DNA of 64,000 bases from Betaproteobacteria bacterium (lineage in GTDB: Bacteria; Pseudomonadota; Gammaproteobacteria; Burkholderiales; Thiobacillaceae), in NCBI GenBank assembly GCA_016234655.1, contig JACRAU010000020.1:1-64000 (forward strand), written 5' to 3'. Each line of letters starts with the position of its first letter. Position 1 is the stretch's first letter. The position numbers and the translations under genes were made by a program. Below the pieces are notes generated by a model. That model did no database searches. It was not told where the DNA came from and saw only the letters and a list, made by a program, of their open reading frames with translations. This document shows, in pieces, positions 3,918 to 17,288 of the stretch.

Positions 3918-6473
<2,556 letters not shown>

Positions 6474-6493: not shown

Positions 6494-6570
6494 GGGCCTG
6501 TAGCTCAGTCGGTTAGAGCAGAGGACTCATAATCCTTTGGTCCTGGGTTCGAGTCCCAGCGGGCCCACCA
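6494..6570 (+). tRNA. tRNA with CAT anticodon (probably Ile2 or elongator Met)
   Basis: GGGCCTGTAGCTCAG...GAGGA-CTCATAA-TCCTT...GGTTCGAGTCC...GGGCCCACCA; cloverleaf and encoded CCA. Confidence 0.93.
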
Positions 6571-6578
6571 AGGTAATT

Positions 6579-6608
6579 AAGGCCGCCAATTGGCGGCCTT
6601 TTTTATTT
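6579..6608 (+). terminator. Rho-independent terminator after tRNA
   Basis: AAGGCCGCCAATTGGCGGCCTT perfect palindrome followed by a T-rich tract. Confidence 0.85.
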
Positions 6609-6632: not shown

Positions 6633-7523
6633 TTAGGGTGCATGGCATTCCGGCAGCAATTTTGCAGGATTGGTTGCGGTCATCTTTCTAATGTCCTCGC
6701 TTGTGATGCCCGTATCCATGAGTTTGGCCAGAAAGCGGCTAAAACCCGCTATCGGCGAGCCATTGGATTTTTGTCCGAGGTCCGATGAAAGCAGGCAATG
6801 TTCAGCGCCTACATGGGCAATTTGATCATGTATCGTTTCCACTTGGATTGGCGCATGCAGAATGTTCGTGCATGCGACAAATGAGTGCTCGATGTACGCC
6901 CCCAGTTTTACGGCTTCTTCCTGTGCGTCGAGAGGAAGCCCTATTCGGGGCATGGAGGCATGCGTAACGACGATTCGGCGAACGCCTGCCGATTTGGCTG
7001 CATCGATGACCCAAAGACATTCTTCGGGGGAGATGTGGCCTGTCGCCAAAATGGCGTCTGAGCGCGCAATTTCTTCGAGGATGGCGAGCAATTCGTTGTG
7101 GTTTTCTCGGCCCCGTAAATTCATGCCAAGTGGATGTTTCTCGCTGTAAGGGTAGTGAGGGCGACTACTGGTCAGATGGCAATGGTGTGCGGCGCCGTAG
7201 GTCGGGAGGAATACCATGGCGGCGCCGTGGCCCAGTGCCGCTTTCACCAGCGCAGAGTTTATGCCGCCTGTTGCTGGATTGAGTACCACAGACCCATAAA
7301 AGCGACAGCTGCCGTCCAGGGTTTTATTTAGGACATACGCTTGTCCGGTGGTTGGTAAGGCGTGATCCTTCAATACGAGTCCAGCCATGCCTGCTTGATT
7401 GGCGGCTAGGCCCAATTCGACGACGTCCATCGCCCGGCCAACTAAGTCTGGTCCGGCGTGCACATGCATGTCGTAGCTTCCTGATAATAATGAACATTCA
7501 CTCGAAAACTCAGCGTGAGGCAT
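6633..7523 (-). CDS. DUF6282-like, amidohydrolase/PHP-type metal-dependent hydrolase
   Basis: HxH motif (YDMHVHAGPD), further His motifs (LKDHALP, TGHIS, VTHASMP). Start assigned to MPHAEF. Confidence 0.65.
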   Translation of the reverse strand: MPHAEFSSECSLLSGSYDMHVHAGPDLVGRAMDVVELGLAANQAGMAGLVLKDHALPTTGQAYVLNKTLDGSCRFYGSVVLNPATGGINSALVKAALGHGAAMVFLPTYGAAHHCHLTSSRPHYPYSEKHPLGMNLRGRENHNELLAILEEIARSDAILATGHISPEECLWVIDAAKSAGVRRIVVTHASMPRIGLPLDAQEEAVKLGAYIEHSFVACTNILHAPIQVETIHDQIAHVGAEHCLLSSDLGQKSNGSPIAGFSRFLAKLMDTGITSEDIRKMTATNPAKLLPECHAP

Positions 7524-7588
7524 GGTGTTGTTTCCGATCTGATCACCCGTTGGAAAGGTTGAGTATTTTTCTGCGAATATGCGCGGTA

Positions 7589-7618
7589 TTGACAGCATTG
7601 AAGCCCCGGTATTAAAGT
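7589..7618 (+). promoter_or_regulatory. Putative sigma70 promoter of nitroreductase-led operon
   Basis: Perfect -35 TTGACA (7589-7594), spacer 17-18, TTAAAG/TAAAGT -10; upstream of AAGGAGG RBS. Confidence 0.45.
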
Positions 7619-7657
7619 AAATAAGTGTTCACTCGTCAACAAAGAAGGAGGTACCTT

Positions 7658-8329
7658 ATGAATGCACCGACCCAAGGCAAGCTGCTGGAACAAACCCTGA
7701 CTACCGGTATTGAAGAAGTCATTCGGCGGCGACGCGCAATCCACAGTTTTGTTCCGGGCCCGAATCTCAGCAAGGAGCAGTGGCAGAAACTATTCGATCT
7801 GACGGCCCTCACGCCTTCTTCCTACAATTTCCAGCCATGGGATTTCGTCGTCGTTGAAGATGTGAAAAAGCGCGAAGAACTGCTTCCGCTGTGCTGGAAT
7901 CAGAAGCAGGTCATGGATTCCGTTGCGGTCCTGGCCGTTCTGGGCGATAAGAATCCGCATCGTCGCGATGACCAGATACTGCAGCAATTCGTCGATGGTG
8001 GTTATTTCAATGACGAAGTTAAACAAACCCTGAAGGGTTCGATCGACGTGGTCTACCCGAATGAAGAGCGTCGTGTCGAGCATGCGGTTTGCGGCGCTTC
8101 GTTGGCGGCGATGACCATGATGTTGGTAGCCGATGGCATGGGTTTGGGTACTGCCCCGCTTATCGGCTTTGACCCCAAAGGTGTGGCCGAATACTTGAAA
8201 GTGCCGAATGACTACATGGTGGTGATGATGATGTGCATCGGCCACCCTTCGCACAAAGAATTACCGAGGCAGCCGCGTCGTGGCTATGAGGATTTCGTGC
8301 ACTGGGGCGCCTTCGGTGGTAAGGCCTAA
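7658..8329 (+). CDS. Nitroreductase-family flavoprotein
   Basis: RRRAIHSFVPGPN...LTPSSYNFQPWDFVVVED... typical nitroreductase N-terminus; GLGTAPLIGF. Confidence 0.88.
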   Translation: MNAPTQGKLLEQTLTTGIEEVIRRRRAIHSFVPGPNLSKEQWQKLFDLTALTPSSYNFQPWDFVVVEDVKKREELLPLCWNQKQVMDSVAVLAVLGDKNPHRRDDQILQQFVDGGYFNDEVKQTLKGSIDVVYPNEERRVEHAVCGASLAAMTMMLVADGMGLGTAPLIGFDPKGVAEYLKVPNDYMVVMMMCIGHPSHKELPRQPRRGYEDFVHWGAFGGKA

Positions 8330-8404
8330 GTAGAGTTCTCGCTCGGCAAGGTGCAGTCGGATCGATGCCGGGTAGATCATCTAATTCATCGAACAGGTCA
8401 AATT

Positions 8405-8449
8405 AAACCCATCACGGCATCCAGCGGTGCTTACGCCGTGATGGGTTTT
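8405..8449 (+). terminator. Intergenic hairpin, terminator or attenuator
   Basis: 14-bp perfect stem AAACCCATCACGGC (8405-8418) / GCCGTGATGGGTTT (8435-8448), ends in TTTT. Confidence 0.65.
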
Positions 8450-8479
8450 CTATTAATAAATATTAAAGGGAGAAATGAT

Positions 8480-9499
8480 ATGAAAATGGAAATGGAGGCC
8501 AGCGTCCTAGAAAAGACGGGCGAGGCGGAAGCGTCGATTCAGTCGGGCGTGAGCCTGCGCGATCATGAGGTCGTAAGGGGGTCATTTAGAGCCCGTGCAT
8601 GGCTGAAGAGCCATGGTTACCCCTATTCAGACAATGTGGAGCTGCGGGCTTCGCCTTTGCGATTTCCCGATGGCGGCAACTTTGCGGTGGAAATCCCTGT
8701 GATCAATACGCTGGATGTGCTGAAAGGCACTGTGGCGGCGCTCAAGGAAGAGGGCATTCCGTGCACCCGCTTCAACGAAACGCATGGCTCGATATTGCTC
8801 TCGGACAGTGAAATCAGGGAAATGCTTTCGCTGTGTGCAGAGAGTGGCTACGGCATTGCATTCTCGATCGGGCCGCGGCCGGAGTATGACAGGAAGGCCG
8901 CTTTTTATCGGGGTAAATTTGGTTTAGAGCAGGGGCGTCGAGTCAATAATAACGATGCGATCGCAAACTCTGTCGAAGAGGTGCTGCGGTTGGTCGATCT
9001 GGGTTGCCGGGGTGTCATTGTCTACGATATGGGGGTCATGCGCATTCTCTCTGAGATGAGAGAGAGCGGGAATCTGCCGCAAGATTTGTTTTTCAAAGCC
9101 TCATCCCATTGCATCGTAAGCAACCCGGTTACAGCGAAGATATGGGAGGAACTCGGCGTCGACAGCGTAACAGTACTGCATGATGTGGACTTGGTTGTCC
9201 TGCAAGAGATGCGTCGGATGACCAACGGCCTGATCCTCGACGTGCCGATCGATGTTTACGACGACAAGGGCGGCTTCATTCGTTACAACGAAATTCCAGA
9301 AATCGTCCAGGTTGCGGCGCCGGTGATTCTCAAGATGGGTGCCAGCGCTCAGGTAAATCCCTACGATCAGGTGAACTTGAATACGGTCAAGAAGCGGGTC
9401 CGTCGAGTGGCGTTGGGCTTGGAATATCTGGAACGCTCCGGCATACCCACGAAATTCGCCGCCAAGGCCGCACCTTTTTGGTGTCATCCATCCCTCTAA
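8480..9499 (+). CDS. Peptidase-U32-like TIM-barrel protein (divergent)
   Basis: KASSHCIVSNPVTAKIWEELGVDSVTVLHDVDLVVLQEMRR resembles the U32 core strand region. GGGAGAA RBS before ATG at 8480. Confidence 0.55.
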   Translation: MKMEMEASVLEKTGEAEASIQSGVSLRDHEVVRGSFRARAWLKSHGYPYSDNVELRASPLRFPDGGNFAVEIPVINTLDVLKGTVAALKEEGIPCTRFNETHGSILLSDSEIREMLSLCAESGYGIAFSIGPRPEYDRKAAFYRGKFGLEQGRRVNNNDAIANSVEEVLRLVDLGCRGVIVYDMGVMRILSEMRESGNLPQDLFFKASSHCIVSNPVTAKIWEELGVDSVTVLHDVDLVVLQEMRRMTNGLILDVPIDVYDDKGGFIRYNEIPEIVQVAAPVILKMGASAQVNPYDQVNLNTVKKRVRRVALGLEYLERSGIPTKFAAKAAPFWCHPSL

Positions 9500-9559
9500 C
9501 CAAGCCTTTCAGGGTGCCGCTCCTGTCGAACGGCGCCCTGGGCCTTTGGGGCGCTAAAA

Positions 9560-10822
9560 ATGCAAACATACAGCGATGCGCTGCCGCTCCATGAGGAGCT
9601 GGATATCCCAAGTGCAGGCAAGGCGCGGGCAGGGCAATTAATGGCACGCGAATTCGCGAAGGAGGTCATGCGACCGTGCGCGGCACAGCTCGATCCCTTG
9701 CCGGCAACTGAAGTATCGACGAATGCGGCATTTAAAGAGTTTTTCAATAAAGCGTATTCCCGGCGGCTACATGCCTTGGCCTGTCCAGAGGCCATGGGGG
9801 GCGAAGGGGCCTCTATTTATGAACAGAGCTTGATTTATGAGGAGCTGGGCTGGGGTAGCTCCGGGTTGGCGCTGTCGTTGGTGGTTTCGCAAATCCCATT
9901 TTTGGCATTGGCGGCCCACGCATCGGCTGATCTGCAGGACCAGTATCTGAGGCCATATCTGGAAGATCGGCAGGCCAAATTTATTGGTTGTTATCCCGTC
10001 ACCGAGCCTGCTCATGGGAGCGATCTGTTTTTTATTGGTAATCCCGTGCATGGAGGAAGGTCGGAATGGAGTTTGGCGCGTTTGAATTACGAAACGAATG
10101 CTTATCTTGATGAACGCCGCAATGAATGGGTCATCAATGGCCAGAAGGCCCAATGGATTACTAATACATCGATTGCGACGCATGCTTTTGTGCTCGCGGC
10201 CCTACAGGCAGGGGGTTCTGCGGGTTTTTTAGTGCCATTGTCGGCTGCGGGCGTTGAACGCGGAGTTGCACTGGAAAAGCTGGGTCAGCGCGAGATGAAC
10301 CAAGCAGGCATCTCATTTAAAGATGTGCGGATTCCCTATAACCACATGCTGGTCGGTCCAAGCGACTACCAGCGCTTCATCTCAAATGCATTTGGCAATG
10401 CCTACATCCTGATTGGGGCGGTATGTGTCGGGATAGCAAGGGCGGCCTTCGAGGAAGCGGTGGCCTTTTGCAAGGCCCGCGTGCAGGGGGGGGCGAGGCT
10501 GGTCGAGCATCAAGATGTCCAGCGTAGGCTGATGGAGATATTCGCCGAAGTGGAGTTGATGCGTGCTTACATCCGCTCGCTTGCTCGGTATCACTCCGAC
10601 GCGGCAAAAGCACGTCTTATGCATTACTCGGCAGTTGCGAGAGGGCATGTGTCCCAGCAGGCATTCAAGGTATGCAGCGATGCGCTCGATCTGTTCGGGC
10701 ATGTCGGGTTTTCCAAGGGTGTGCTGATTGAGAAGCTCTATCGAGATGCAAGGATGACGAGAATGATGGGAGGGGCGGGGACTGTGGCGCAACTTCGTGC
10801 GGCCCAAGAATTTTTTGCCTGA
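9560..10822 (+). CDS. Acyl-CoA dehydrogenase-family flavoprotein
   Basis: EELGWGSSGLALSL, GCYPVTEPAHGSD, NEWVINGQKAQWITN, ...RMMGGAGTVAQLRAAQEFF fold signatures. Confidence 0.85.
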   Translation: MQTYSDALPLHEELDIPSAGKARAGQLMAREFAKEVMRPCAAQLDPLPATEVSTNAAFKEFFNKAYSRRLHALACPEAMGGEGASIYEQSLIYEELGWGSSGLALSLVVSQIPFLALAAHASADLQDQYLRPYLEDRQAKFIGCYPVTEPAHGSDLFFIGNPVHGGRSEWSLARLNYETNAYLDERRNEWVINGQKAQWITNTSIATHAFVLAALQAGGSAGFLVPLSAAGVERGVALEKLGQREMNQAGISFKDVRIPYNHMLVGPSDYQRFISNAFGNAYILIGAVCVGIARAAFEEAVAFCKARVQGGARLVEHQDVQRRLMEIFAEVELMRAYIRSLARYHSDAAKARLMHYSAVARGHVSQQAFKVCSDALDLFGHVGFSKGVLIEKLYRDARMTRMMGGAGTVAQLRAAQEFFA

Positions 10823-12007
10823 ATGATCATGGGACGATCGAAATATCAAATTGCCGCCCTTCCGGGCGATGGCATTGGCCGAGAAGTCATGGATCAGGCG
10901 GTACGGGTGCTAGGTCTCGTATCCGAACGGTCGGGGTGCGTGTTCGAGATAGACACTATTCAGTGTGGGGCACAGTATTACCTGGGGCATGGCGACGATA
11001 TCGAGGCTGGCGGGCTTGCCAGGTGCAAGGCAGCCGATGTGATTCTGTTAGGGGCGGTTGGCCTGCCGAGTCCCGATGGCAGATCGCAAATCACCATGCC
11101 CGATGGAAAGATGGCCGGATGGTCTCCGCTCGTGCGAAATCGGGTGAATTTGGATCTTTACGCCAATATTCGTCCGGTGAAACTCTTCGATGGCGGTGCC
11201 GTTCGGATATCTGGCGAGGTGCGACATGTATGGGCCCCTGACAAAGTGGATATGGTGTTCTTTCGCGAAAACACCGAAGGCCTCTATGCCGGGTCGGGCG
11301 GCATACTGGCGCCTGGCGGGATACCCCAGGTTGCGACGGACACTCGGATATTGACCCGAAATGGTTCGGAGCGGATTTTACGCAGGGCCTTTGACGCAGC
11401 GAGTATTCGGAGAGGGGCACCCGCAGACGGTAAGAAACGCGTGACGTGCGTCGTGAAAAATAACGTTCTCTATGGCTGCAAATTTTTCACCGGTATTTTG
11501 GAAGAGGTTGCCGATCGGTATCCGGATGTTGAATATGAGGTGGTATTGGTCGACGCCTTTTGCCAATGGCTGCTACGGCAACCCGAGCACTACGATGTGG
11601 TGGTGACGACCAATATGTTCGGTGACATCGTGACCGAACTGGCAGCGGTACTGCAAGGAGGGGTGGGCATGGCGAGCGGTGGCAACGTGGGTGATCGGCA
11701 TGCGATGTTCGAACCGATTCATGGCTCCGCGCCAAAGCTTGCAGGGAAAAACCAGGCAAACCCCATGGCAATGATGCTGGCCACATCGGAGGCCTTGAAA
11801 TGGCTCGGTACGCAAAAAAACGATCCGCTCCTTTATGCGGAAGGAACCCATATCGAATCCGCCGTTAGGGCGCTGATCAAGTCGGGTGAATGCCTTACTT
11901 ATGACCTAAAAGGGGCATCCGGAGCGGCGTCGATGAGCGAGGTAACGGAGGCGTTATTGCAAGAGTTGGCGAGGATTCCGTTGGCTTCGTCTGTCGTTTC
12001 TGGGTGA
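10823..12007 (+). CDS. Isocitrate/isopropylmalate dehydrogenase-family protein
   Basis: ALPGDGIGREVM N-terminus, VFFRENTEGLYAG, NMFGDIVTELAAVLQGGVGMASGGN, FEPIHGSAPKLAGKNQANP. TGA/ATG junction with the preceding gene. Confidence 0.88.
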   Translation: MIMGRSKYQIAALPGDGIGREVMDQAVRVLGLVSERSGCVFEIDTIQCGAQYYLGHGDDIEAGGLARCKAADVILLGAVGLPSPDGRSQITMPDGKMAGWSPLVRNRVNLDLYANIRPVKLFDGGAVRISGEVRHVWAPDKVDMVFFRENTEGLYAGSGGILAPGGIPQVATDTRILTRNGSERILRRAFDAASIRRGAPADGKKRVTCVVKNNVLYGCKFFTGILEEVADRYPDVEYEVVLVDAFCQWLLRQPEHYDVVVTTNMFGDIVTELAAVLQGGVGMASGGNVGDRHAMFEPIHGSAPKLAGKNQANPMAMMLATSEALKWLGTQKNDPLLYAEGTHIESAVRALIKSGECLTYDLKGASGAASMSEVTEALLQELARIPLASSVVSG

Positions 12008-12033: not shown

Positions 12034-12058
12034 AGGCCGCCGAATGGCGGCTTTTTTT
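12034..12058 (+). terminator. Rho-independent terminator at end of metabolic island
   Basis: GCCGCC-GAAT-GGCGGC followed by TTTTTTT. Confidence 0.85.
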
Positions 12059-12209: not shown

Positions 12210-12908
12210 ATGGATGCGTCCCAGGCAAGTGAGGCCCCCGATATGACGATGTTTCTGGCATCGTCTATCCACGATATGAAGAACTCGCTCAGCGTGTTGA
12301 CGGGGTTCATGGAAGACAGCCTGAGCGATGCGGCGCTGCGGGAACAACCGATTTATAAAAAAATGGCGCCCATGTTCTACGAGGTCAAACGGCTGAACGA
12401 CAACCTGCTCGAGCTGCTGACCATCTATAAGGTGGACCGGAAGTTCTACCCCTTCGATCTGGCCGAGCATGCCGTCGACGACTTGATGGCCGAGATCGAG
12501 CATCAAAGCGGAACCTTGCTGAATACGCAGAACGTGCAACTCGAATTGGACGTGCAAGAGGGGCTGTACTGGTATTTCGACCGTGATTTGGTGATGGGCG
12601 TGATCTCGCACGCATTGAACAATGCTTCCCGCTATACCCGGGGCCATCTGCGCTTGGCGGCGGCGGAGGTGGACGGTTTCCTCGAGTTGCGAGTGGAGGA
12701 CAACGGCGGTGGCTACCCCAAGGCCATGATCGAGGAGGGCATCGCGGTCAACCGCGGCGTCAGCTTCAATACCGGCAGTACCGGGCTGGGCCTGTATTTT
12801 TCCGCCATGGTGGCCAAGATGCACAAGAACCAGGGCCGGGTCGGTGAGATCGTGCTCGAGAACGGCGGCAAGCTGGGCGGCGGCTGCTTTATTCTGCGGC
12901 TGCCCTGA
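12210..12908 (+). CDS. Soluble histidine kinase without recognisable sensor domain
   Basis: H-box SSIHDMKNSLSVL; N/G boxes (NNASRYT, VEDNGGGYP, GLGLYFS). No TM or PAS visible. Confidence 0.85.
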   Translation: MDASQASEAPDMTMFLASSIHDMKNSLSVLTGFMEDSLSDAALREQPIYKKMAPMFYEVKRLNDNLLELLTIYKVDRKFYPFDLAEHAVDDLMAEIEHQSGTLLNTQNVQLELDVQEGLYWYFDRDLVMGVISHALNNASRYTRGHLRLAAAEVDGFLELRVEDNGGGYPKAMIEEGIAVNRGVSFNTGSTGLGLYFSAMVAKMHKNQGRVGEIVLENGGKLGGGCFILRLP

Positions 12909-12939
12909 TTCCCGTCAAGAACGATAGCGAGACACGGAC

Positions 12940-14565
12940 ATGGTATTCACCACCGATAGCCACAATGCCTTTGCCGAGCGGCGATTCCTGATCGTCGACG
13001 ATTTTCAGGGCATGCGTTCGATGCTGCGGGAGATGTTGAAATCCTGCGGCGCCAAGGATATCGATGCCGCTTCGAACGGCAACGAAGCCATCGGTATGCT
13101 GGAAAAGAACAAGTACGATATCGTCTTGTGCGACTACACATTGGGCGCCGGCAAGAACGGCCAGCAGGTTCTGGAGGAGGCCAAGTTCAGGAATCTGGTC
13201 GGCCTGGCCACGGGCTGGGTGGTGATCTCGGCCGAGAAGACCCAGGACATGGTGTTGGGCGCGGCGGAATACACGCCGGACGACTATATCGTCAAGCCGG
13301 TCAACGAGGCGACCGTGCGTGCGCGCTTGCTCAAGGTCATGGCCCGGAAAGAAACCATGCAGGATATCGAGCGGGCGCTCAAGTCGAACGACTACAAACG
13401 CGCCATCGCCTTGTGCGATGAACAGTTGGCCGCGCGCTCGCCCTATACCTCCGACCTGCTGCGCATGAAGACCAATCTCTTGATGAAGTCGGGCCAGAAC
13501 GACAAGGCCCAGGCCGTGTTCGAGCAAATCCTGGCGCAGCGCGACATCCCATGGGCCAAGAGCGGCCTGGCAAAGATACATTTACTGAACAAGGATTTCG
13601 AGACGGCGCGTCGTTTGCTGAGCGAGGTGGTCGAGAGCAATCGCACCTATCTCGAGGGTTACGATCTCTTGGCCAAGACCCTGGAAGAGGCGGGCGAACT
13701 GGACGAGGCGCAGCACGTTCTGGCCCGTAGCGCGGAGCTCTCGCCCAATTCGATGATGCGGCAGCGCTCCTTGGGCGAGATTGCGCAGAAGCGCGGTGAC
13801 TTGGATGTGGCGGAAAAGTCCTTCCGCAAGACGATCTCGCTGGGCGAGTTTTCGGTCTTCAAGACGCCGGGTGCCCATCTCGGCCTGGCCAAGGTCTGCG
13901 CGGAGAAGAACAACACGTCCGAGGCGATTCGCGTCCTGGGCGAGGTGCACAAGCATTTCGACGACCCCGAGGCGGCATTGCATGCGAAGGTGATCGAGGG
14001 CGCGGTGCATAGCAAGAGTGGAAATCTCGCCGAGGCGCGCAAGTTGGCGGGCGAGGTGGCTGCCATGGTGAAAGAGTCCGCCGCGCGCCTGCCGGCGCAT
14101 ATCACGCTGGAGGCGGCCGACTTGATCATGGGGACCGGGAACAAGGATGCGGCCGCCGATCTGCTCAAGATCGTCGTGCAGAACAATCACGAGAACAAGC
14201 AGCTGATCGAAGATGTCAAGAAGGTCTTCGTGAAGGGCAATATGGAAGAGGTGGGTAACGACCTGGTCGAGTCTTCTCTGCAAGAAGTGGTGCAAACCAA
14301 CAACAAGGGTGTCGCGCTGGCCAAGGAAGGCAAGCTGGACGAGGCGGTTACGTTGATGCGCAATGCCAAGTCCATGATGCCCAACAACAAGCGCATCCTG
14401 CTGAATCTGGCCTATGCCATGATCCTGGCGATGAAGAAAAGCGGCAGGGACAACAGCATGGAGCGAGAGGCTCGCGAGTGCCTCGAGCGCGTCCATAAGC
14501 TGGATCCGGGCGAGAAGCTTTATGGCGAATACCGGGCGATGCTGGAGGCGCTCGCCAGCTCGTGA
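12940..14565 (+). CDS. Response regulator receiver domain fused to TPR repeats (paralog 1)
   Basis: RFLIVDDFQGMRSMLREML...DIVLCDYTLG...VVISAEKT...IVKP REC signature followed by TPR-like helices. Confidence 0.88.
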   Translation: MVFTTDSHNAFAERRFLIVDDFQGMRSMLREMLKSCGAKDIDAASNGNEAIGMLEKNKYDIVLCDYTLGAGKNGQQVLEEAKFRNLVGLATGWVVISAEKTQDMVLGAAEYTPDDYIVKPVNEATVRARLLKVMARKETMQDIERALKSNDYKRAIALCDEQLAARSPYTSDLLRMKTNLLMKSGQNDKAQAVFEQILAQRDIPWAKSGLAKIHLLNKDFETARRLLSEVVESNRTYLEGYDLLAKTLEEAGELDEAQHVLARSAELSPNSMMRQRSLGEIAQKRGDLDVAEKSFRKTISLGEFSVFKTPGAHLGLAKVCAEKNNTSEAIRVLGEVHKHFDDPEAALHAKVIEGAVHSKSGNLAEARKLAGEVAAMVKESAARLPAHITLEAADLIMGTGNKDAAADLLKIVVQNNHENKQLIEDVKKVFVKGNMEEVGNDLVESSLQEVVQTNNKGVALAKEGKLDEAVTLMRNAKSMMPNNKRILLNLAYAMILAMKKSGRDNSMEREARECLERVHKLDPGEKLYGEYRAMLEALASS

Positions 14566-14659
14566 GCGCAATGTTCGACGGCACCCTTTCCCCACGCGGC
14601 ATGCCGCCGTCCGCCATTCAAGGCGCTCCACGGCGCTCGATCATCTTTGGCTAGTGCTG

Positions 14660-14682
14660 GACATTACGGGCAAGAATGTCCT
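14660..14682. promoter_or_regulatory. Inverted repeat upstream of crp/fnr-family gene
   Basis: GGACATT-N9-AATGTCC perfect 7-bp arms, 31 bp before the start codon. Confidence 0.4.
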
Positions 14683-14713
14683 ATTTTCCGTAACTGCATT
14701 CACATTGGCTTAG

Positions 14714-15373
14714 GTGGTGGCAATGGTCGTAGCGAAGCAGGACGAAGCCTTATTTCCCGTGGACGACCCCCTTTTCAACGAGCTGATAAGCGAAGGGGTG
14801 GTTCGGAGCTATGGCAAAAAGGCCATTCTCATCAGCGAGGGCGATGACGGGAATTCGGTCTATCTGGTGCTTTCCGGCCGCTTGAAAATCTATACCAGCG
14901 ACGAGTCCGGAAAAGAGCTGGTGCTGGCATTCTGCGGCCCCGGGGACATCGTGGGCGAAATGGCGCTCGATGGCTCCAAGCGTTGCGCGACGGTCATGAC
15001 GACCGAACCCACGCGTTGCGGGGTCATCACGCATGGCCGTTTCCGCGAGCGCATCAAGAACGATCCCGACCTGGCCATGCGGGTGATCACGCGTTTGATC
15101 CGGCGTAGCCGGACGGCGACGAAGGCGGCGAAGGATTTGGCGCTGGCGAGTGTCTACAGCCGCGTGGTCAATCTGCTGAACGATCTGGCCGTGCCCGTCG
15201 CCGGGGGTGCGCGTGTCGTGCAGGAAAGACTTTCCCAGCAAGACATCGCCCATCGCGTGGGTTCTTCGCGCGACATGGTCAACAAGGTCTTCAAGGAGCT
15301 GCTGCAGGGCGGCTATATCGAGGTCAATAATCGCGAGATCGCATTGCTGAAAACCCCGCCGGCGCATTGGTGA
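14714..15373 (+). CDS. Crp/Fnr-family transcriptional regulator
   Basis: cNMP-binding fold and C-terminal HTH (LSQQDIAHRVGSSRDMVNKVFKELLQGGYIEV). No N-terminal Fe-S Cys cluster. Confidence 0.9.
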   Translation: MVAMVVAKQDEALFPVDDPLFNELISEGVVRSYGKKAILISEGDDGNSVYLVLSGRLKIYTSDESGKELVLAFCGPGDIVGEMALDGSKRCATVMTTEPTRCGVITHGRFRERIKNDPDLAMRVITRLIRRSRTATKAAKDLALASVYSRVVNLLNDLAVPVAGGARVVQERLSQQDIAHRVGSSRDMVNKVFKELLQGGYIEVNNREIALLKTPPAHW

Positions 15374-15650
15374 GGCATCGGGGCGTCGCCCCGGAATGCC
15401 CCCTCGATATATGGCCGGGACGGCACCCAGGGCAAGTACATAAGTACCAGCAGCATCCCGAATTTTAGACTGGGCTCATGCGGAAAAGCCGATCCCATTC
15501 CCATCGGAAACGGCATAAAGTTCATTCGCTCGCCGCCGAGCCGACTCCCCGTCTCACAAGAACCAATAAGGAGAGCTCGCTGGGGCGATAGTGAATGACC
15601 GTGGTGGGAGCCACAGTCTATTCGAACAATAAATTGTTTGGGATGGTGCA

Positions 15651-17288
15651 ATGTTCATCGATGGCGATCATGCGATCTTTTCCAGCAAGCGCTTTCTGGT
15701 GGTGGATGACTTCCAGGGCATGCGCACGATGTTTCGCGAAATGCTGAAGTCCTGCGGGGCGCGGGAGATCGACGCCGCCACCAACGGCAAGGAGGCCATC
15801 GCCTTGCTCGAGGCGAACAGGTACGACGTGGTCTTGTGCGACTACAACCTGGGCGCCGGCAAAAATGGCCAACAGGTCATGGAAGAGGCCAAGGTCAGGA
15901 ACTTGATCGGCCTGGCCACGGCATGGGTCGTCGTGTCCGCCGAGAAGACCACGGAGATGGTGCTCGGGGCCATGGAGTACATGCCGGACGATTACATCAT
16001 CAAGCCGTTCACCGAGGCGATCATCCGCTCCCGCCTGCTGGCGGCGATCGCGCGCAAGGAAATGCTGCACGATGTGGAGAAAGCCCTGTACGACAAGGAC
16101 TACGCGCGCGCAATCGCGTTGTGCGACGAAAAACTCAAATCAGGCATCGGCCATGCCGGCGATCTGATCCGCATGAAGACCGGGCTTTTGATCACCGCCG
16201 GCCGGCGCATTCAGGCCAAGGAGCTGTTGGATAAGGTACTGGCTCAGCGCGACGTGCCGTGGGCCAAGGTCGAGCTGGCGAGGGTGCATTATCTGGAGGG
16301 CGAGATCGATACGGCCCGCGATCTGCTGTTGCAGGTCACCGAGGTGAACCGGACCTATATGGGCGCCTACGATCTGCTTGCCAAAATACTCGAGGAGAAA
16401 GGCGACCTCGAAGAGGCGCAGCACGTGCTCGTGTGCAGTATCGATCTGTCGCCGAATTCCGCGACGCGGCAAAAGGCGCTAGGTGAAATAGCGCAGAAGT
16501 TGGGCGATCTGGACCTGGCCGAAAAGGCCTTCCGCAAAACGATAGCGCTGACCGAGCATTCGGTACTGAAGGTGCCGGCCGCCTACATCGGCCTGGCCAA
16601 GATATGCACGGAAAAAAACAACACGGGCGAGGCGATGCGCGTGCTGGGCGAGGTGCAGAAGACCTTCGATTGCACGGAATCTACCATCCACGCCAAGGTC
16701 ATCGAAGGCGTCTTGTATCGGAAGAACCGCGATCTGAAGGCGGCTCAGCAGATAGTCAAGGAGGTGGTCGGCCTAGTGAAGGGGGCCGCGTCAGCCCTGC
16801 CGGTCGGCGTCGCGCTGGAGGCGGCAGAATTCATCATGGACAATGGCGATACCGCGACGGCCCGGGATTTGCTCAAGGCCGTGGTGCAGAACAATCATGA
16901 GAATGAGGTCGTGCTGGAGCAGGTCAAAAAGATATTCCAGCGAGCCGACATGCACGAGGACGGGGAGGAACTGGTGGCGGCCTCGCTGCGCGAGGTCGTG
17001 GATTGCAACAACGAGGCAGTGCATCTGGCCCAGGCGGGTCAATTGCAGGAAGCCGTCGCCTTGTTGCGCGATGCCAGGAAGATGATGCCGGGCAACAAGC
17101 GCATCCTGTTGAATCTGAGCTATGCCCTTATTTTGTCCATGCAGACCGCCAGGAGCAGAGATTTCGCGACGGATCGCGAGGTGCGCGACTATCTGGAGCA
17201 AGTGCGCAAGCTCGATCCGAGCGACGGGCAGTGCACCAAATATCGCAATGCGCTGGATGCCATTCCGTTCACCAGCGCGGCGGCCTGA
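15651..17288 (+). CDS. Response regulator receiver domain fused to TPR repeats (paralog 2)
   Basis: RFLVVDDFQGMRTMFREMLKSCGA...; collinear similarity to the 12940-14565 product along its length. Confidence 0.88.
   Translation: MFIDGDHAIFSSKRFLVVDDFQGMRTMFREMLKSCGAREIDAATNGKEAIALLEANRYDVVLCDYNLGAGKNGQQVMEEAKVRNLIGLATAWVVVSAEKTTEMVLGAMEYMPDDYIIKPFTEAIIRSRLLAAIARKEMLHDVEKALYDKDYARAIALCDEKLKSGIGHAGDLIRMKTGLLITAGRRIQAKELLDKVLAQRDVPWAKVELARVHYLEGEIDTARDLLLQVTEVNRTYMGAYDLLAKILEEKGDLEEAQHVLVCSIDLSPNSATRQKALGEIAQKLGDLDLAEKAFRKTIALTEHSVLKVPAAYIGLAKICTEKNNTGEAMRVLGEVQKTFDCTESTIHAKVIEGVLYRKNRDLKAAQQIVKEVVGLVKGAASALPVGVALEAAEFIMDNGDTATARDLLKAVVQNNHENEVVLEQVKKIFQRADMHEDGEELVAASLREVVDCNNEAVHLAQAGQLQEAVALLRDARKMMPGNKRILLNLSYALILSMQTARSRDFATDREVRDYLEQVRKLDPSDGQCTKYRNALDAIPFTSAAA

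Follow-up and report, generated by a model that had tools for sequence, protein, structure and literature searches.

The acyl-CoA dehydrogenase (ACAD) superfamily includes members with other chemistry, such as 3-sulfinopropionyl-CoA desulfinase and nitroalkane oxidase. Peptidase U32 proteins are known in most of their families by a 4Fe-4S cysteine motif, and two U32 subfamilies are without it (PMC6747719). Here, we describe a five-gene cassette that encodes a protein at the edge of each of these families. It lies in the window, i.e. the whole 64,000-nucleotide stretch of DNA that was analysed.

Location, borders and composition

The cassette spans about 5.5 kb (6.6–12.1 kb of the window) and consists of five intact genes between the terminator of an rpoD-linked tRNA-Met and a histidine-kinase-like gene. 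These are, in order, a divergent DUF6282 gene and the nitroreductase, U32-like, ACAD-like and IDH-like genes, the last four directed rightward. All five families had been named in an earlier note on this DNA, and each is matched in Pfam, with U32 barely over its cut-off. The tRNA-Met(CAT) (6494..6570, + strand; ARAGORN) adjoins the insertion site, and the left border falls just after a scanner-predicted terminator behind it (6579..6606, + strand), whose hairpin occupies 6579–6600. The right border region holds a terminator-like hairpin with a T run (12034..12058, + strand), which is plain in the sequence and mostly conserved in sister species; the consensus scanner does not list it. The block is thus bounded as the earlier note had described, by the tRNA with its terminator and by a second terminator. 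A few details are corrected here; one is that the ACAD-like and IDH-like genes, read as joined by a TGA/ATG overlap, have a stop and a start that are adjacent (TGA-ATG).

The block had also been called lower in GC than its flanks, and three measures agree. GC is 53–56% in the cassette versus 60–68% in most flanking kilobases, GC3 is 0.55–0.65 in its genes versus 0.77–0.86 in flank genes, and a codon-adaptation-like index (to flank genes) is 0.36–0.48 versus 0.58–0.77. No regulator, transporter, integrase or CoA ligase was found among the open reading frames and Pfam matches of the block, as first noted. Insertion at a tRNA 3' end was part of the same early reading. The site does lie beside the tRNA, but there is no tRNA-Met copy at the opposite border, no shared word of at least 10 bp was found between the borders, and an integrase is missing. 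A tRNA-integrase element was therefore rejected.

Distribution and genealogy

All five genes occur in the same order and at the same site in two sister species of the genus (L008 and L009). Two relatives, G004 and G001, have an empty site that likewise adjoins the tRNA-Met(CAT), and the tRNA-side terminator is kept at the empty-site locus L015. Comparing relatives at the rpoD-tRNA locus, as the earlier note had proposed, thus gives three carriers and two empty sites. Of 149 related genomes, three have the U32-like gene, and all three belong to this genus; a sample of 399 genomes from the phylum has no further carrier. Matches to the gene are absent from phage records and viral contigs, and a phage origin was set aside. 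There are no orthologues in the rest of the family outside the genus. The concern that the genes might never co-occur elsewhere proved half right: two other species of the genus have the intact set, which was found nowhere else. We found no paper that mentions DUF6282 and none that describes the five-gene combination.

Purifying selection acts on all five genes, with dN/dS values among the three sister species of 0.01–0.17 (DUF6282 gene, 0.10–0.17; nitroreductase, 0.01–0.03; U32-like, 0.04–0.06; ACAD-like, 0.08–0.10; IDH-like, 0.10–0.11). What is new beyond the earlier observation is the discordance between the genealogies of cassette and flanks (chi-square p about 1e-58). Changes private to the window number 8.5 and 12.3 per 100 sites in the flanks and 3.2 in the cassette, and the pattern switches at about 6600 and 12150, that is, at the cassette borders. 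Since the cassette has a genealogy unlike that of its flanks and the switch falls at its borders, it has been transferred from species to species at this one locus. Horizontal acquisition, proposed at the outset, is well supported by the foreign composition, the empty sites, the rarity of the U32-like gene and the discordant genealogy. The cassette would have entered between the tRNA-Met terminator and the histidine-kinase-like gene, and species of the genus have since exchanged it, probably through homologous recombination in the flanks that they share.

We consider it highly improbable that the genus inherited the cassette from its common ancestor, that G001 and G004 lost it, and that weak expression is all that sets its composition apart. 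All three carriers do have it at one site, and presence/absence alone cannot separate gain from loss. However, the rest of the family has no orthologue, GC3 is far from that of the host, and a difference in rate cannot shrink the distance between the window and L008 while enlarging that between L008 and L009. Discordant cassette and species trees are already indicated by these data.

The five proteins

The metal-hydrolase-like DUF6282 gene (6633..7523, − strand; Pfam PF19799, 3.1e-57) matches its family at 193.9 bits against a cut-off of 26.8. Its start is most likely at 7523, giving 296 aa, because both sister species share this start; a longer reading frame reaching 7598 overlaps a TTGACA promoter box and is an unlikely start. 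Residues H45, H47, K77, H188, H213 and D273 are conserved with three plasmid relatives, and this set (HxH, Lys, His, His, Asp) is, by analogy, a putative metal-binding site. The predicted structure is poor (pLDDT 38), and a PDB sequence search returned nothing meaningful. Relatives of the protein lie mostly in catabolic operons, which favours a catabolic role. From its position in the cassette, we infer that the divergent gene belongs to the same pathway as the other four.

The nitroreductase-family flavoenzyme (7658..8329, + strand, 223 aa; Pfam Nitroreductase, 7e-24; 85.3 bits, cut-off 23.5) has B. subtilis YdfN (3bem) as its closest solved relative. Upstream lies a predicted sigma70-like promoter, TTGACA-18-TAAAGT (7589..7618, + strand), which scored 10/12 with a scanner whose count of such sites is not above that in shuffles; its -35 box, -10 region and leader are conserved in the three species. 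The gap between this gene and the U32-like gene contains a 14-bp perfect inverted repeat (8405..8448, + strand), possibly a terminator or attenuator, so that the four rightward genes may not be one simple operon. No Rfam family matches the gap, the tRNA being the only Rfam match.

The inverted repeat, which parts the nitroreductase gene from the U32-like, ACAD-like and IDH-like genes, raises the question of whether the cassette is a single unit. It could instead be a collection of foreign, selected genes of at least two unrelated functions (e.g. DUF6282 and nitroreductase versus the other three), gathered at a permissive site. The divergent DUF6282 gene fits such a collection, as does the finding that no two of the five genes stand together in the inspected loci of organisms from other genera. 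Yet the genes have composition, borders and discordant genealogy in common, and each of the three carriers has the complete set, which makes this explanation unlikely.

The U32-like TIM barrel (8480..9499, + strand, 339 aa; Pfam Peptidase_U32, 5e-5) starts at 8480, and not at the open reading frame start at 8351. Its match of 23.0 bits exceeds the cut-off of 22.4 by only 0.6 bits, and relatives fall on either side of the cut-off. The four-cysteine 4Fe-4S motif (CX6CX15CX3/4C) is absent from the protein and from eight relatives. The best fold matches of its structural model are class II aldolases, with the U32 protein 5d88 also among the matches, at TM-scores of about 0.4–0.6 that are typical for any TIM barrel; a PDB sequence search with its profile gave nothing meaningful. 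Relatives adjoin sugar-acid genes, a DHDPS-family gene and PrpD/fumarase/citrate synthase genes. The closest of them (50–60% identity) lie in biosynthetic-looking clusters and distant ones in sugar-acid catabolic loci. In genome G558, the U32-like gene is interrupted by stops and is uninformative.

The acyl-CoA-dehydrogenase-fold flavoprotein (9560..10822, + strand, 420 aa; Pfam PF02771, PF02770 and PF00441) exceeds the Pfam cut-off in its N-terminal, middle and C-terminal domains, and its best solved matches are MCAD. Gly occupies the JK-loop position of MCAD Glu376, and Ala the alternative helix-G position (255), identically in three species; in the same comparison the nearest relatives have Asp and the FadE control has Glu. 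This gene is the only ACAD-family member of the genome. ETF alpha (PF00766) was found in none of six genus genomes, one of them complete, and in 10 of 14 controls. Desulfinase and acryloyl-CoA reductase models are among the best NCBIfam matches, far below cut-off. With no catalytic acid, no second ACAD and no ETF found, an ordinary acyl-CoA dehydrogenase activity is very unlikely for this protein, and ordinary beta-oxidation was rejected. The unusual flavoenzyme first noted here is thus borne out in a sharper form.

The isocitrate/isopropylmalate-type decarboxylating dehydrogenase (10823..12007, + strand, 392–394 aa; Pfam Iso_dh, 8e-82) starts at 10829 or 10823; the ATG at 10823 is missing in one sister species and that at 10829, 6 nt downstream, is conserved in all three. 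The substrate Arg, catalytic Tyr and Lys, and metal Asp residues are kept, except for one metal-ligand Asp replaced by Glu (GDIVTE for GDILSD). The protein carries HGSAPKLAG where HGSAPDIAG is expected, which suggests NADP+ as the cofactor. It falls below every NCBIfam equivalog cut-off, including those for LeuB, ICDH, TDH and homoisocitrate dehydrogenase.

A candidate pathway and its known counterparts

For the function of the cassette, our best guess is a short, more likely biosynthetic pathway whose substrate would be a small carboxylic acid, and a small-molecule pathway with an oxidative decarboxylation is plausible. The five genes would together act on a small carboxylic acid with a hydroxy or oxo group, and would more likely make a small metabolite than consume one. 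The DUF6282 enzyme would hydrolyse an amide, lactone or similar bond, the nitroreductase may reduce an enone, imine or nitro group, and the U32-like barrel would form or break a C–C bond. Instead of ETF-linked acyl-CoA dehydrogenation, the ACAD-like protein may catalyse a different flavin reaction, for instance one that uses O2 or a reduced-flavin donor (e.g. the nitroreductase), or a redox-neutral elimination. The IDH-like protein would oxidatively decarboxylate a malate-type acid. We give about even chances to the reading as a whole, i.e. a foreign cassette, inserted and since exchanged between species, that encodes one short and more likely biosynthetic pathway. More tentatively, this could be an undescribed biosynthetic pathway in which a base-less, ETF-independent ACAD-fold enzyme and a cluster-free U32-like C–C lyase perform chemistry new to both families. 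Against a biosynthetic role, the cassette has no self-resistance or export gene, unlike many biosynthetic clusters.

A catabolic or detoxifying cassette is possible, if not the reading we would favour. The DUF6282 protein, nitroreductase and U32-like lyase would then degrade a cyclic or nitro compound of the habitat, and the IDH-like enzyme would pass the last hydroxy-acid to central metabolism. DUF6282 relatives adjoin genes for catechol dioxygenase, HpcH-type and HMG-type aldolases, nitrilase and semialdehyde dehydrogenase, and IDH-like relatives lie in catabolic loci that also encode TRAP or ABC transporters; the distant U32-like relatives point the same way. On the other hand, the closest U32-like relatives do not, the cassette lacks a transporter, regulator, CoA ligase and ring-opening oxygenase, and neither an ETF in the genus nor a second ACAD in the genome was found. 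The host has a RuBisCO gene, which also weighs against catabolism, and the carrier bacteria probably fix CO2.

The cassette offers two testable enzymes at family edges: an acid-less ACAD-fold flavoprotein without its usual ETF acceptor and a cluster-free U32-like barrel. It is also a compact five-protein unit that changes hands between species at a single place in the chromosome; as it does so without a mobility gene of its own, it shows cleanly how recombination can spread a metabolic cassette. If a small molecule is made, a RuBisCO-bearing, small-genome genus would have a short pathway, all of which a laboratory strain could express.

Compared with known systems, the locus resembles metabolic islands at tRNA genes in being a foreign block beside a tRNA that varies between relatives, and differs in having neither an integrase nor repeats at its borders, and no second copy of the tRNA end. 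DUF6282 proteins of ring-cleavage operons (e.g. on a Thermus oshimai plasmid) share the full-length family match and the conserved His/Asp set, at 32–36% identity, whereas their dioxygenase and aldolase genes are absent near the cassette gene. The U32-like protein shares a TIM barrel with the U32 hydroxylases (UbiU/UbiV, RlhA, TrhP), its Pfam match being borderline, but not the CX6C/CX15C motif, and its relatives have different neighbours (sugar-acid and biosynthetic-looking loci). The IDH-like enzyme has the Iso_dh domain and active-site residues of isocitrate, isopropylmalate and tartrate dehydrogenases, from which its Glu metal ligand, HGSAPKLAG motif and sub-equivalog scores set it apart. 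Finally, the flavoprotein is like the acyl-CoA dehydrogenase superfamily over its full length and in all three domains, and departs from it in having neither an acid at MCAD-376 or 255 nor an ETF partner.

Composition and layout of the cassette

Five intact genes lie between the rpoD-linked tRNA-Met(CAT) (6494-6570) and a histidine-kinase-like gene at 12210, in a host genome assembly of 2.67 Mb, and this cassette is foreign DNA. The lower GC content described in the earlier note is confirmed (53-56% versus 60-68% for most kilobases of the flanks). The cassette genes have a GC3 of 0.55-0.65, compared with 0.77-0.86 for eleven genes of the flanks. On a codon-usage index trained with flank genes, the five score 0.36-0.48 and flank genes 0.58-0.77. 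Pfam assigns DUF6282, Nitroreductase, Peptidase_U32 (just above cut-off), three acyl-CoA dehydrogenase (ACAD) domains and Iso_dh to the five genes, none of which reaches an NCBIfam equivalog cut-off. The ORF list contains no additional convincing gene in the block and bears out the reported lack of a regulator, transporter, integrase and CoA ligase. Comparison with sister species corrected the gene starts to 7523 (DUF6282), 7658 (nitroreductase), 8480 (U32-like) and 10829 or 10823 (isocitrate/isopropylmalate dehydrogenase-like, IDH-like); the ACAD stop and IDH start, previously read as a TGA/ATG overlap, are adjacent and do not overlap.

A TTGACA-18-TAAAGT pair upstream of the nitroreductase gene is kept in three species, as is the leader to the ribosome-binding site; a consensus promoter scan by itself was not above chance. 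A 14-bp inverted repeat (8405-8448) lies 3' of the same gene. Its outer stem of 9-11 bp is fully conserved in the three species and its inner part varies, with a 6-nt indel. It has no Rfam match and could be a terminator, an attenuator or an unknown leader element. Because this conserved repeat follows the nitroreductase gene, expression of U32-ACAD-IDH may differ in level from that of the nitroreductase.

The neighbouring loci have features of their own. RpoD carries a histone-H1-like N-terminal tail (3918-4490; about 190 residues, 26% Lys, 26% Ala, 14% Pro), and a comparable tail occurs in one sister species (locus L008). On the other side (12210-17288), the histidine-kinase-like gene is followed by regulator genes, in which two paralogous response-regulator/TPR proteins (12940-14565 and 15651-17288) flank a Crp/Fnr-type regulator (14714-15373). 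The kinase-like gene is present in the compared genome G004 and absent behind rpoD in another, G001.

Distribution, selection and exchange

All five genes occur in identical order and at the same site in sister species G002 and G003 (loci L008 and L009). At this site, G004 (a complete genome) has the histidine-kinase-like gene directly after the tRNA terminator and G001 has other genes; these two genomes could be compared, whereas in G005 the rpoD 3' end did not turn up. The U32-like gene is present in 3 of 149 related genomes, all of the host's genus, and turned up in no further genome among 399 from the phylum. In the samples searched, which are partial, the IDH-like gene (E <= 1e-80; 299 phylum genomes) and the ACAD-like and DUF6282 genes (1e-48 and 1e-45; 374 order genomes each) were found only here; plasmids carry weaker relatives (32-45% identity). 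At least two of the carrier genomes were assembled from metagenomes of a single sampling project.

Across all five genes and all pairs of the three species, dN/dS is 0.01-0.17, the nitroreductase gene being the most constrained, and no stops interrupt the genes; the cassette has thus been kept by selection. Flank dS is 0.58-1.04 between the window and L008/L009 and 0.16-0.29 between L008 and L009, whereas cassette dS is 0.20-0.36 in all pairs. Private changes per 100 sites number 8.5 and 12.3 in the two cassette flanks of the window versus 3.2 in the cassette itself, and for L008/L009 1.6-2.8 in the flanks versus 3.8-4.8 in the cassette (chi-square p about 1e-58 for the contrast). The genealogy pattern changes at about 6600 and 12150. 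Since a difference in rate cannot shorten one distance while lengthening another, we conclude, from these three sequences, that the cassette was exchanged between species. No word of 10 bp is common to both borders and no integrase is among the ORFs; recombination through the homologous flanks would be the simplest route. Altogether, the block is almost certainly a foreign, selected and exchanged metabolic cassette.

Departures from the parent enzyme families

In medium-chain acyl-CoA dehydrogenase (MCAD), Glu376 is the catalytic base, and some families place the base at residue 255 instead. In the ACAD-like protein, aligned to MCAD, these columns hold Gly and Ala, respectively; the Glu376 column is Asp in the nearest relatives found (32-34%) and Glu in a FadE control. 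The JK-loop Glu is conserved in most ACAD family members, the exceptions being long-chain, isovaleryl- and benzylmalonyl-CoA dehydrogenases (PMC11659651). The protein is the only one of its kind in the genome (E <= 1e-20), and the alpha subunit of ETF, the usual electron acceptor, was not found in six genus genomes (10 of 14 controls positive). The ACAD fold is therefore kept, while two features that define acyl-CoA dehydrogenases are lacking. Other chemistry on this fold has precedents, namely desulfination and nitroalkane oxidation.

A 4Fe-4S motif of four cysteines is present in most U32 families (PMC6747719), and TrhP requires one Glu and two Cys (PMC6599085). The four-cysteine spacing is found in none of the eight U32-like relatives examined. 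Invariant residues are E71, R97, D183, K206, S208, D254, R268 and K285, most of them placed by the predicted model (pLDDT 75) at or just past the carboxy ends of barrel strands. Its fold matches are headed by class II aldolases, followed by U32 protein 5d88 and PrpB, and with TM of 0.35-0.63 across the list the modelled likeness to aldolases is suggestive only.

Relatives in Thermomicrobium and Streptomyces adjoin mandelate-racemase-type, lactonase and sugar-transport genes; others adjoin a DHDPS-family gene (L040) or MmgE/PrpD, fumarase and citrate synthase genes (L011). The closest relatives sit in clusters of biosynthetic look. In a Lewinella MAG (L010, 1-11143), the U32-like gene (56-60% identity, at the contig end) accompanies an NRPS, an ABC exporter, a TauD-type dioxygenase, glutamate mutase subunits and an Asp/Glu racemase. 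On an Enterobacter chuandaensis plasmid (L004, 9270-23174), it lies with an enolase, an APH-type kinase, a 2-hydroxyacid dehydrogenase, an aminotransferase, two haem-oxygenase-like enzymes, an M14 peptidase, an MFS protein, a nucleotidyltransferase and a phosphatase, in what looks like an undescribed biosynthetic cluster. A more distant relative in a genome of the same class (G817; L039, 5723-15750) is found with Asp/Asn hydroxylase, Asn synthase, two ATP-grasp, MFS, 2OG-Fe dioxygenase, SHMT-like and xylose-isomerase-like barrel genes, likely a small-peptide pathway. Most of these neighbourhoods would suit a C-C lyase or an aldolase with hydroxy- or oxo-acid substrates.

The IDH-like protein retains the Arg, Tyr, Lys and Asp residues of the active site, with one metal Asp changed to Glu. 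Its coenzyme loop reads HGSAPKLAG, not HGSAPDIAG. In isocitrate dehydrogenases, Lys in this loop points to NADP+, which suggests the same coenzyme here. A ligand set resembling that of amidohydrolases is present in the DUF6282 protein, whose relatives are found in ring-cleavage and other catabolic operons. The nitroreductase is similar to B. subtilis YdfN.

Pathway and host

The five genes probably serve one joint pathway. Its role is perhaps somewhat likelier to be biosynthetic, with a catabolic role a possible second; this preference comes from the presence of RuBisCO in the host, the gene neighbourhoods of the closest U32-like relatives, and the lack of a transporter, a CoA ligase and ETF. 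In the host genome, contig C24 carries two complete genes for the RuBisCO large subunit, separated by about 16 kb, and a fragment lies at the end of contig C1; these genes suggest an autotrophic host. The literature searched contained no description of the five-gene arrangement, and the cassette enzymes are new variants within known families.
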